From NCBI RefSeq assembly GCF_014269205.2, contig NZ_JABWRY020000001.1, positions 5,070,001 to 5,134,000 on the forward strand: a stretch of DNA of 64,000 nt. Reading direction: 5' to 3'. The notes beneath the pieces were generated by a model. That model was given only the letters and a program-made list of their open reading frames with translations, was not told where the DNA came from and did no database searches. Source of the stretch: Pseudomonas kermanshahensis. GTDB taxonomy: Bacteria > Pseudomonadota > Gammaproteobacteria > Pseudomonadales > Pseudomonadaceae. Position numbers and translations under genes: made by a program. Numbering within the stretch: position 1 is the stretch's first letter; every line of letters begins with the position of its first letter. This document shows positions 38,326 through 41,019 of this stretch, piece by piece.

Positions 38326-38922
38326 ATGCTCCATGAGTTGTTCAGTGTCTACCTGAAGATGCTCGTGCTCTACAGCCCGTTCTTTGTGCTGTCGTGCTTC
38401 ATCAGCCTGACCCGCGGCCATTCCAGCAAAGAACGCAAGCAACTGGCCTGGAAGGTTGCCCTCGCCGCCCTGGTCGCCAGCGTGCTGTTGTACCTGTTCG
38501 GCCGGGCGATCTTCGGCATTTTCGGCATCACCGCCGACGCCTTCCGCATCGGTGCCGGCAGCGTGCTGTTCATCTCGGCGTTAGGCATGGCGCAGGGCAA
38601 ACCGGCGGTGCAGGCCGACAACGTGCAGCAGGACGTGACCATCGTGCCCTTGACCATCCCGCTGACCGTCGGCCCCGGCACCATCGGTGCCCTGCTGGTG
38701 ATGGGCGTGGGCCAGCCGCATTGGGACGATAAATTGCTGGCCATCGCCAGTATCGCGCTGGCCAGCTTCACCGTGGGCCTGGTGCTGTACCTCTCGCACG
38801 GCATCGAGCGCATTCTCGGCGACCAAGGCCTGCAGATCGTCAGCCGTTTGATGGGATTGTTCGTCTGTGCCCTGGCGGCGCAGATCATCTTTACCGGGAT
38901 CAAGGGTTACCTGGTACCCTAA
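38326..38922 (+). CDS. MarC family (UPF0056) membrane protein
   Basis: 198 aa, six membrane segments. FFVLSCFISLTRG near the start, FGITADAFRIGAGSVLFISALGMAQ and IVPLTIPLTVGPGTIGALLVMG are family stretches. Function of MarC proteins is unsettled; some exports have been reported. ATG at 38326 has GAGG 10 nt upstream; the longer frame overlaps retS and is rejected. Its TAA stop overlaps the stop of the convergent unknown gene by 4 nt. Confidence 0.88.
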   Translation: MLHELFSVYLKMLVLYSPFFVLSCFISLTRGHSSKERKQLAWKVALAALVASVLLYLFGRAIFGIFGITADAFRIGAGSVLFISALGMAQGKPAVQADNVQQDVTIVPLTIPLTVGPGTIGALLVMGVGQPHWDDKLLAIASIALASFTVGLVLYLSHGIERILGDQGLQIVSRLMGLFVCALAAQIIFTGIKGYLVP

Positions 38923-39542
38923 AAATCCGCCTTTTTGATCTCCTCCAGCGCGGTTTTCACCAGCGCACGTTCCACCCCGCTGCGACGCTCTTGGTCGAAC
39001 AGGCGCGTATTGAACCGCACCAGCTCTGCCATCACGCGCATGTTGCGGCGCTCACGAAACAGAAAACCGGCCGTGAATGCAGCGCGGCCGCCAGCCTCGT
39101 GATACAGCACAATGTCTACATAGTTGGCATTCACGGGCGCGCAGGACATCAGCTGAAACTTCCCTTGTTCACCGCTTCGCTTCTCAAAATGCAGCAAAGG
39201 CGTATCGTTCTTCTTCAATTTCTCCAACGCCAGTGCCATGTAGGTTGAATGGCTATCCCCCGCGACCGCATCGATCGCACTCAGCACTTGATCGACTATT
39301 ACCACGCGCTGAGGGTCAGGCCAGTGGACCTCTTCTGCGGTCTTCGCATCCCACCCAAGAAACATCAGCTTCTTGCGGTAGTAGTGGTATTGGTCCTTGG
39401 CAGCTTCCTTCTTCATGTCCGTCAAGGTCACGGTCTCAGCCCACAACGCGGCAAGCTTGATCGCGTTGCGCTGTCGAAGGCTAACGCCAGGGATAAACGA
39501 AACCAGGCTTGCGCCAACCACATCGGCTTCATGTTCGTGCAT
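38919..39542 (-). CDS. Unknown protein, third gene of a paralogous trio
   Basis: 207 aa, soluble, no signal peptide, basic. Not recognised. It carries the trio signature YxxYRKKLMFLGW (GW at residues 63-64). Its C-terminal half (FQLMSC, then GFLF, then RFN-x-x-LF, then VERALVKTA...DF) aligns with the 40239-40919 product: Cys followed 42 or 46 residues later by FN, then an R-x2-VE helix and a final D-(F/I). The ATG at 39542 is preferred because GGAG lies 7 nt upstream; the ATG at 39548 is only one base after the same GGAG. Overlaps the preceding gene by 14 nt. A 60-nt sample (39121-39180) is 57% G+C against 67% in nearby marC. Confidence 0.75.
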   Translation of the reverse strand: MHEHEADVVGASLVSFIPGVSLRQRNAIKLAALWAETVTLTDMKKEAAKDQYHYYRKKLMFLGWDAKTAEEVHWPDPQRVVIVDQVLSAIDAVAGDSHSTYMALALEKLKKNDTPLLHFEKRSGEQGKFQLMSCAPVNANYVDIVLYHEAGGRAAFTAGFLFRERRNMRVMAELVRFNTRLFDQERRSGVERALVKTALEEIKKADF

Positions 39543-40176
39543 GGTCATGCTCCGGTTTTAGCAGGCCCAGGTTCCTGATGTGTGCCGCGTTCTGCGTGCG
39601 CTCAAGCAGGTCACGCAGCTCTTTGCGATTGGCGTCAGAAACGAACTCGCCCAGCGTTGCGCCACTGGCGCGCAAGTCGATACCGTTGGTTGAACACTGC
39701 GGGGTTTTGAACGCTACACCACACAGGTCGAGGACAGCACCAGGCAGCAACACGCCCAACTCTTGAACGACTGCCGTGGTCTTACCCTGCATGGCCTGGG
39801 TAAAGGGCCGCACGGCGTGCTGCGCCTCATCTTGCGAAAGCGCGTTGATGGCCGCTTGCAGATGGCCTGACAGGCTGGGATGACGACCCTGCAAATAACC
39901 TGTGAGGCAGTCTGCTGATGCTCGTAGCACGTCGCCCTGCATGCGCGGGTAGTCACTGTGACTGAAGGTGATGACCCAACCACGCTCTTCCAGAGCCGTT
40001 CGATAGCCGCTGTACCAAAGCCCGTAGCGGGCAAATCGTGGGCCGTTCAATTTGTCCGAGCGCAGTTGGGCAAACAGTATCGAGTCCAATGCATATTGCA
40101 GCGTGGGTTGCGCCGTCTCGTCGACCAATAAGGCCGTTCCGCCAACGAGCCACAAGGAATAGACTCCCTTACTCAT
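39529..40176 (-). CDS. Unknown protein, middle gene of a paralogous trio
   Basis: 215 aa, no signal peptide or membrane helix. Not recognised. Contains LWYSGYRTALEERGW (GW at residues 66-67), the signature shared with both neighbours, followed by a helical middle and a C-terminal SDANRKELRDLLERTQNAAHI helix similar to the DA-x-R helix of the first gene. Its similarity to the other two is weaker outside these segments. The ATG at 40176 follows GAGGTAA; starts further upstream (to 40242) would run into the first gene. Translationally coupled to the third gene by overlap. Confidence 0.75.
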   Translation of the reverse strand: MSKGVYSLWLVGGTALLVDETAQPTLQYALDSILFAQLRSDKLNGPRFARYGLWYSGYRTALEERGWVITFSHSDYPRMQGDVLRASADCLTGYLQGRHPSLSGHLQAAINALSQDEAQHAVRPFTQAMQGKTTAVVQELGVLLPGAVLDLCGVAFKTPQCSTNGIDLRASGATLGEFVSDANRKELRDLLERTQNAAHIRNLGLLKPEHDHART

Positions 40177-40238
40177 CGGGTTACCTCGCATTTCAAACAC
40201 ACAGAAAGAAGTACGGGGCCCGAAAGCCCCGTTCAATA

Positions 40239-40919
40239 TCAAATGTCGAATTCACTGGCTGCCTTGACGGCCTTGTCGATCAAGCGTTTCTCGACCGAGG
40301 CGCGCACCGCGTCGGTGTAAACCACGTCGTTAAAGCTGAGCACGGCCGAGCCACAGTAGCGGTCCTTGCTCGAACTCTTCCATTCGAACACCGTGGTATT
40401 CAGGTCGTTTTCGCTCGGTGAGGCACTGAATGCGTTTACCAGCATGAACAGTTCGCCTTCAGGCGTTTCGATGCAGGCCCCAAGACCCGTCGTCGAGACT
40501 GGATGCCCTTTGACGTTCTGCTGGTAGACCTGCTGCGCTTCCTCGATATTGCCCAACGCGCTGATGGCATCGCCCGCCAGCTTGGCCATGGCCTCGCCTA
40601 CTGGCCCACCGAGCAGTGCTTTACCGGCGGCGCTAGCGACCTTGAAGGCAATCGGGCCCAAGGTCAGCGATCGGCTCTGGTCATAATCCCGCTCGTAAGA
40701 ACGCTTGCCAGCAACCCAACCAAGCGTACGCATCACTTCCAGAAACTTGTTGAACCAGGCCTCGGATTCGCCATCGCGATCATGCAGCTTGGACGCCACG
40801 CGAGAGGCAAACTGGAAGGTGGTCTTGGCATCACGCCGGCTTTGCGCCGACATGCCAGCGCTGAGCGCCAGAAGCGATTGTTCGACAACGGCAATGCTGT
40901 TAGTGCTTACATCGGTCAT
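40239..40919 (-). CDS. Unknown protein, first gene of a paralogous trio
   Basis: 226 aa. Not recognised. An N-terminal helical part ends in AWFNKFLEVMRTLGW (GW at residues 67-68). A Gly/Ala-rich hydrophobic stretch follows (about 90-120; IAFKVASAAGKALLGGPVG, then EAMAKLAGDAISALG), which could be amphipathic or membrane-active. The last 85 residues look like strands plus a terminal helix (FEWKSSSKDRYCG, SFNDVVYTDAVRASVEKRL). No signal peptide. The ATG at 40919 has AAGG 9 nt upstream; a strong stem-loop sits just before it. Leads a three-gene - strand operon. Confidence 0.78.
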   Translation of the reverse strand: MTDVSTNSIAVVEQSLLALSAGMSAQSRRDAKTTFQFASRVASKLHDRDGESEAWFNKFLEVMRTLGWVAGKRSYERDYDQSRSLTLGPIAFKVASAAGKALLGGPVGEAMAKLAGDAISALGNIEEAQQVYQQNVKGHPVSTTGLGACIETPEGELFMLVNAFSASPSENDLNTTVFEWKSSSKDRYCGSAVLSFNDVVYTDAVRASVEKRLIDKAVKAASEFDI

Positions 40920-40932
40920 GTGCAGAATCCTT

Positions 40933-40966
40933 GAAGGCCCCCGACGGGTATCGTCGAGGGGCCTTC
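40933..40966 (-). terminator. Stem-loop between cobJ and the unknown trio
   Basis: GAAGGCCCC-CGACG (40933-40946) pairs with CGTCGAGGGGCCTTC (40952-40966) with one bulged base and a 5-nt loop. On the - strand it follows cobJ by about 55 nt and precedes the trio's first ATG by 14 nt. No T-run; it could stop cob transcripts or shape the trio's leader. Confidence 0.55.
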
Positions 40967-41019
40967 ACCCTAAGCTGCAAACAACCGCGGTACAGGCATG
41001 AACGGGTTCCCTCGGCGCC

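Follow-up and report, generated by a model that had tools for sequence, protein, structure and literature searches.

What is encoded by three small genes that lie between marC and the cob genes of a Pseudomonas chromosome? The question is raised by a stretch of 64,000 nucleotides from Pseudomonas kermanshahensis (contig NZ_JABWRY020000001.1, positions 5,070,001 to 5,134,000; the whole stretch is referred to as the window), in which these genes, here named A, B and C, form a cassette. The answer proposed below, to which we assign a probability of about one half, is that the three proteins are paralogous and act as subunits of a single heteromeric, membrane-permeabilizing complex with a cytolysin-like fold. 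The features of the cassette are:

40239..40919, minus strand: gene A, 226 amino acids (P0001), first gene, putative core subunit
39529..40176, minus strand: gene B, 215 amino acids (P0002), second gene
38919..39542, minus strand: gene C, 207 amino acids (P0003), third gene
40716..40760, minus strand: aromatic/GW signature of A, residues 54-68 (AWFNKFLEVMRTLGW)

Gene B yields 215 residues from ATG 40176, while its mechanically called open reading frame (ORF) begins earlier, at a TTG; an alternative start of gene C, ATG 39548, would give 209 residues. Genes A and B are spaced by 62 nt, and the last 14 nt of B also belong to C. The triad follows, in the same direction, two genes on its right flank that we take to be cobI and cobJ, and is convergent with a presumed marC on its left flank. 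The original prediction for this DNA had described three co-directional genes for proteins of 226, 215 and 207 residues, with an aromatic/GW motif in each, a G+C content below that of the neighbors, and marC and cob genes on the two sides. This description was borne out: all three genes are present on the minus strand, the motif as written is found in all three proteins with its G at residues 67, 66 and 63, the G+C content in 500-base windows is 56-60% in the cassette and 61-71% in the flanks, and the neighbors are marC, convergent on the left, and cobJ and cobI, co-directional on the right. Across 101 relatives, only two columns are conserved at 90% or more: in A these are W55, which is the W of the motif, and G67, which is the first residue of GW. 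Such a pattern is unlike the conservation of an enzyme.

Judged by their sequence profiles, A, B and C are paralogues of one family. When run on the genes predicted in the loci collected, hidden Markov models seeded separately from A, B and C all arrive at an identical set of 95 proteins, and comparison of the clade profiles using hhalign gave probabilities of 99.9% for A-C (E 1.8e-34), 99.3% for A-B (E 1.1e-20) and 99.0% for B-C (E 3.5e-18). These alignments span most of the length and place GW on GW in register, so that the paralogy stands. In a tree of 116 rows, support was 100/99 for the B group, 94/91 for the C group and 91/53 for the A-type rows. When rows from outside Pseudomonas were included (69 rows, computed without that of genome G430), B was again separate (99/95), A and C were not cleanly separated, and two rows earlier grouped with A (L065 and its like) moved to the C side. 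Because B and C form separate groups that span the sampled genus, the duplication is old.

The three genes also diverge together. Averaged over 27 triads, the protein distance is 0.70 for A (the lowest of the three), 0.77 for B (the highest) and 0.72 for C, while in the same loci it is 0.09 for the flanking marC and cobI and 0.22 for a flanking kinase. The distances of A, B and C intercorrelate with r values of 0.86-0.90, compared with 0.45-0.64 for their correlation with those of the flanks; once the kinase flank is regressed out, the mutual correlations are 0.79-0.86. The clearest case is locus L073 (genome G081), where marC, cobI and the kinase are 95-98% identical to those of the window and cobJ is 86% identical; A, B and C are 18-27% identical. 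The best explanation for this locus is that the entire unit was exchanged while the flanks were conserved, which argues that A, B and C work together. What the computation establishes is thus a set of paralogues in an operon-like layout that arose by an old duplication, co-diverge, and rapidly diverge or are replaced as a unit between conserved flanks. The suggestion in the original prediction that tandem duplication was followed by divergence into a multi-component unit is supported by the shared 95 proteins, the profile matches and this co-divergence.

The family is common in the genus. A family profile finds a match in 134 of 199 Pseudomonas genomes, and A alone as the query in 126 of the 199. 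A count by eye in the family-profile table gives a single match in 32 genomes, two matches in 24 and at least three in 78; as at most 14 candidates were scored per genome, these numbers are lower bounds. The type present singly in the solo loci read is the A-type. In 38 related genomes, a search using A gave 19 matches, all in Pseudomonas (19/25 inside the genus, 0/13 outside), where the Pseudomonas genomes overlap the 199-genome sample. In 48 loci, chosen mostly as best-scoring hits (two of them, L035 and L039, are the same locus), such that counts of context are not prevalences, the neighboring genes were recognized visually and through their homology to the window flanks. In 41 of the 48, one or more of the flanking genes cobJ, cobI, marC and kinase are found near the family genes, with a cobJ match in 35, and the remaining seven (L062, L064, L065, L067, L069, L070 and L075) are at other addresses. 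Six loci (L055, L059, L060, L061, L063 and L094) have a different arrangement, in which marC and the kinase gene enclose the cassette, so that it is found on the far side of marC. In four loci (L060, L061, L063 and L094), an unassigned open frame of 1408-1526 amino acids is seen beside marC, at the expected place of cobJ.

The locus was also inspected in genomes that have no match to the family. Of 65 such genomes, marC was sought in 20, and a close marC (79-90% identity) was present in 19. It is directly beside cobJ in two of these (loci L120 and L125), at a distance of about 55 bp in G044 and about 160 bp in G030, and about 1.3 kb separate the two genes in a third (L123); in the other 16, there is no cobJ within 1.5 kb of the marC examined. 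The claim that marC and cobJ are direct neighbors elsewhere therefore holds for some Pseudomonas, i.e., for two among the 20 cassette-free genomes searched. The accompanying idea of an insertion peculiar to the strain had to be abandoned, given a family found in 134/199 genomes and a flank kept at 41/48 loci. The data fit a long-occupied address at which the unit diverges, is swapped or is lost.

Sequence libraries offered little guidance as to function. None of the 101 family members has a credible match in Pfam, NCBIfam, PADLOC or the PDB sequences. When searched alone, A, B and C gave nothing usable (best E 0.02). Against PADLOC-DB 2.0.0, the best E-value was 0.02 for A, B and C and 9.4e-4 for the 101 members, where any one model was matched by at most two of them. 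Matches of one or two members each to Herpes_LAMP2, Zincin_2 and the PADLOC model PDC-M68A (E about 1e-3) were judged to be due to chance. A phage or prophage origin was considered and set aside: A, C and the GW domain of G430 have no match in 50,697 phage records, and A has none in viral contigs. Among the matches listed in a search of the open-licence PubMed Central (PMC) literature, no description of the GW family was found. A family present in 134 of 199 sampled Pseudomonas species is accordingly without an entry in the family libraries searched.

A functional lead comes from predicted structures. AlphaFold models were made for A and C, each from 19 sequences (the window and relatives on named contigs), and B is tied to them by its sequence profile. 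The predicted local distance difference test (pLDDT) and predicted template-modelling (pTM) scores are 67.9 and 0.72 for A, and 78.4 and 0.80 for C, and the order of secondary elements is identical in the two models, EE-HH-E-HHH-EEE-H. The models were compared with 350,542 PDB chains using Foldseek. For A, ranks 1-12 are all chains with the cytolysin fold, from four proteins, with probabilities of 0.54-1.00 and template-modelling (TM) scores of 0.25-0.47. They include Evf (E 7.8e-4 and 9.3e-4, probability 0.96-0.99), the entry 1cby, which we take to be a Cyt2-type toxin (E 2.3e-3, probability 1.00, TM 0.47), as well as Cyt1Aa and volvatoxin A2 (E up to 0.051); rank 13 is unrelated and has a probability of 0.10. 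For C, the matches are weak: ranks 1-4 are Evf, 1cby, Evf and Cyt1Aa (E 0.04-0.12, probability 0.38-0.80, TM 0.30-0.41), followed from rank 5 by unrelated H-NOX chains. The available part of PMC5390079 describes the cytolysin fold as a beta-sheet between two helical layers, which the predicted element order of A and C fits; it also reports that three divergent clades were united as one family via structural alignment and mentions a putative lipid-binding pocket. Like the maturation of Cyt and the Dickeya gene cluster taken up below, these features are in agreement with the GW proteins. The modelled fold of A as that of a cytolysin is a strong lead, not proof.

Distant relatives provide a second lead. 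A sample of the phylum gave matches in 8 of 398 genomes, of which two do not belong to Pseudomonas; in the class of G430 there is a match in 1 of 337 (G430 itself), and in its family in 6 of 248. Among plasmids, 50 of 72,556 records match, 45 of them from Sinorhizobium; eight of these 45 were read and are of two types. The non-Pseudomonas loci read were grouped by hand into 12, which include:

G430 and G1081 (L092 9808-13194; L153 10274-13663): a single polypeptide composed of GDSL/SGNH, caspase C14, M15 and GW
Sinorhizobium fredii type: GW, then SGNH-Amidase_3-M15, then trypsin
G991: GW, then a trypsin-domain protein with an EGDSW segment
Rhizobium leguminosarum: TIR-nSTAND1-WD40, CHAT-TPR-S, GH108 lysozyme, GW, TIR-nSTAND1-WD40
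G1002: CHAT-nSTAND1, TCAD7-CHAT, Lipase_3-subtilase, GW
G1036: AAA ATPase, a 1546-residue protein of unassigned family, Lipase_3-subtilase, GW
S. meliloti: a pair, then, in L103, a short trypsin-like gene

At 8 of the 12 loci, GW is either fused with a caspase, CHAT, trypsin or subtilase or has a gene for one close by. Peptidoglycan hydrolases are found at 4/12 and lipid or SGNH hydrolases at 6/12 (one by motif only), which gives one or the other at 7/12; an NTPase gene is nearby at 3/12. In G430 and G1081, the only caspase-family match of the genome is the fused one, and each has one subtilase match, away from GW. Subtilase matches are found at two places in G1036 and at four in G1002, in each case with one of them beside GW. 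For the neighbor of GW in G991, the SGNH assignment rests on the EGDSW segment, while Pfam matched just the trypsin domain.

Several further observations were made in these loci. The SGNH-caspase-M15-GW genes adjoin a gene for a protein of 735-738 amino acids without a Pfam match, with a motif that we take to be papain-like, and no description of SGNH-caspase-M15 proteins was found in the open-licence PMC literature. The 1546-residue protein (L155 13012-17652) lies upstream of GW, between the AAA ATPase and Lipase_3-subtilase genes. An N-terminal EGDSW (SGNH) segment recurs together with amidase, trypsin and caspase domains (L077 8710-11187, L157 2904-6983), and the proteins that bear it are perhaps a modular lysis family. 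An A-like/B-like pair is seen on a plasmid of the actinobacterium Curtobacterium (L101), i.e., the paired form is not confined to Pseudomonadota.

Taken together, the model matches and the company of the relatives suggest the following mechanism. The A, B and C proteins would be made in soluble form and held inactive until triggered, upon which they would co-assemble and insert into, or otherwise permeabilize, a membrane. In the relatives, an adjoining protease could serve as the trigger and partner hydrolases acting on peptidoglycan or lipid could complete lysis; such activation by, or joint action with, a protease and peptidoglycan or lipid cutters, as in a lysis or cell-suicide (conflict) system, is drawn by analogy with these distant loci. 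No protease or hydrolase was recognized in the Pseudomonas cassettes read, which were inspected by eye without a family-library scan, and the trigger would for this reason be encoded elsewhere or come from outside. As for the target, we lean slightly toward the producing cell, i.e., defense by suicide, because of the company that the relatives keep. The available text of PMC5390079 states that Cyt toxins perforate membranes after proteolytic maturation. The earlier guess of a toxin complex or defense module is compatible with the fold matches and the non-Pseudomonas neighbors; neither function is demonstrated by them.

A number of observations weigh against a heteromeric pore with this fold. 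The model of A is of middling quality (pLDDT 67.9), its TM-scores reach only 0.25-0.47, and only two rows have E-values of 0.001 or better; no row of C does, and C alone would not convince. The alignments used for A and C share most rows, so the two models are not independent, and their TM-scores are below 0.5; B is joined by its profile only. Neither Cyt, Evf nor volvatoxin is found among the 20 Pfam families matched by the 101 members at E≤0.1, or among the six PDB sequences matched by the 101-row profile at E≤10. In A of the window, no strongly hydrophobic stretch is seen (maximum 1.26 over 19 residues), and a value of 1.6 is reached by 17/44 members of the A type, 6/35 of B and 3/35 of C. 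The link to proteases is uneven. Among six genomes inspected for them, caspase-family genes are located only away from GW in G1036 (four), G1002 (four) and G978 (two), and there are none in G991. Five of the eight protease-linked loci belong to one clade (100/99), the other placements not being settled, and the linkages are therefore not eight independent events. No protease is seen at four of the 12 loci, i.e., the Vibrio plasmids, Qingshengfaniella, Curtobacterium and G567, with neighbors partly scanned at all of these except G567. On the Vibrio plasmids, GW is followed by a 1.2-kb stretch left out of the reading and then a metallophosphoesterase; G567, itself a partial profile match (E 1.4e-6), has a neighboring autotransporter with a sub-threshold trypsin match (E 0.043) and was counted as being without a protease.

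The same evidence can be read in other ways. The triad may be an outward toxin, i.e., a multi-component cytolysin released by lysis or export and acting on eukaryotic cells such as insects, amoebae or nematodes, a tentative reading that we hold to be clearly less probable than the one above. The predicted fold matches would suit it, and the available part of PMC5390079 describes a four-gene cluster of paralogous Cyt proteins in Dickeya dadantii, three of which are toxic to the pea aphid. Triads without a recognized protease or immunity gene fit maturation by host proteases, fast divergence and replacement as a unit fit an arms race, and it is these free-standing triads that keep the toxin alive as an explanation. 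Against it stand the several non-Pseudomonas relatives in protease/STAND/TIR/CHAT loci of intracellular appearance, and no signal peptide or secretion gene was noticed, although a dedicated tool was used for neither. If it were correct, Pseudomonas would harbor a widespread multi-subunit cytolysin.

Rather unlikely, in our view, is that the GW domain is a scaffold that recruits effectors in conflict systems and that the triad is an orphan assembly of such scaffolds. C-terminal fusion to three hydrolase domains and linkage to several types of protease do resemble the principle of effector-associated domains (EADs; PMC8195603, seen in part), and the lack of a strong hydrophobic stretch in A of the window is in keeping with an adaptor. 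At about 215 residues, however, the GW domain is at odds with the domains called small in the available text of that paper; the cytolysin fold ranks first for both models, and no effector partner was recognized in the Pseudomonas cassettes. Inspection of the window triad by eye, again without a family-library scan, likewise revealed no adjacent protease, NTPase or effector. A housekeeping or metabolic role, in which the triad works with cobI/cobJ or marC as an accessory of the cobalamin locus, is very improbable. It would account for the cobJ match in the same stretch at 35/48 loci and for the position of the window triad behind cobIJ in the same direction, but relatives occupy other chromosomal sites in 7/48 loci, reside on plasmids of other genera (one of them of another phylum), and are absent from the two cassette-free genomes where cobJ and marC are adjacent.

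How the cassette could be expressed is suggested by the region upstream of gene A, which contains:

41000..41010, minus strand: palindrome GGAA-N4-TTC (GGAACCCGTTC) upstream of A, a candidate operator
40967..40973, minus strand: TTAGGGT, a -10-like (TANNNT) element downstream of the palindrome, noted by eye from its resemblance to the consensus
40933..40966, minus strand: putative stem-loop just upstream of the ribosome-binding site of A, noted by eye

The palindrome is found in 20 of 53 regions upstream of A genes, where about 1.5 would be expected from its frequency in the window, counts that come from related lineages and are not independent; the other 33 regions are without it. In 14 of the 20, it is located 80-98 nt before the ORF start, and 19 of the 20 loci are at the cobJ/marC/kinase address, the one elsewhere being L067. 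The sequence of the stem differs between loci while, by eye, its complementarity is kept, and the stem-loop could also be a terminator of cobIJ. These elements suggest that the cassette has its own promoter in the palindrome-bearing lineages.

The genome of the window harbors a second cluster on another contig (G000:C3, about 169090-170055), composed of an A-like gene and a divergent partner. This pair (L091 7716-9134) is near genes that resemble those of a dipeptidase and LprI. A link to lysozyme inhibition, considered because of this neighborhood, was dropped, as LprI is apparently a fixed flank at that site.

How, then, does the GW family compare with known systems? Caspase, trypsin, TIR and subtilisin are named as parts of conflict systems by Kaur et al. 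(2020, 2021; PMC7159879, PMC8195603, in the parts available). Like the NTP-dependent ternary and EAD-linked systems described there, some GW relatives adjoin genes for CHAT, TIR, nSTAND1, TCAD7, trypsin or subtilase; unlike them, the window cassette contains no recognized part of these systems, and the GW domain was not recognized in the available portions of the two papers. A parallel in gene organization is to cytABCD of Dickeya dadantii, where several paralogous genes with the cytolysin fold are also clustered together across genomes, but its members are recognizable Cyt homologues, which the GW proteins are not; co-divergence of the subunits was measured for the GW triad, and no such test was seen for cytABCD in the accessible text of PMC5390079. 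Cyt of Bacillus thuringiensis, Evf and volvatoxin A2 are the top structural neighbors of the modelled A and C and are similar to the GW proteins in size (186-267 residues in the targets) and in the absence of enzyme-like conservation. The GW proteins differ in having no detectable sequence similarity to these proteins, in forming co-diverging A/B/C sets at a hypervariable chromosomal address, and in that two genomes encode them as fusions with SGNH, caspase and M15 domains.

Bacterial gasdermins are membrane-perforating proteins encoded beside proteases. The likeness lies in the candidate perforating protein that some GW relatives present beside caspase-like or trypsin-like proteases; the gasdermin fold is, however, absent from the 50 PDB matches listed for A and for C, no protease was recognized beside the Pseudomonas triad, and that triad has three subunits. 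It is conceivable, as a speculative extension that we consider doubtful, that GW proteins are a cytolysin-fold counterpart of gasdermins, i.e., perforating effectors freed by caspase, CHAT, trypsin or subtilase in immune operons of the STAND/TIR type, in many cases together with a hydrolase of peptidoglycan or lipid by which lysis is completed. The Pseudomonas triad would then be a self-contained, three-subunit version whose pore is kept closed until needed by paralogues in place of a protease, and which is subject to diversifying pressure at one chromosomal address. If the predicted fold holds, the family would represent a new branch of cytolysins, tied in bacteria to caspase-like, CHAT, trypsin and subtilase proteases, and a second type of protease-linked pore besides the gasdermins.

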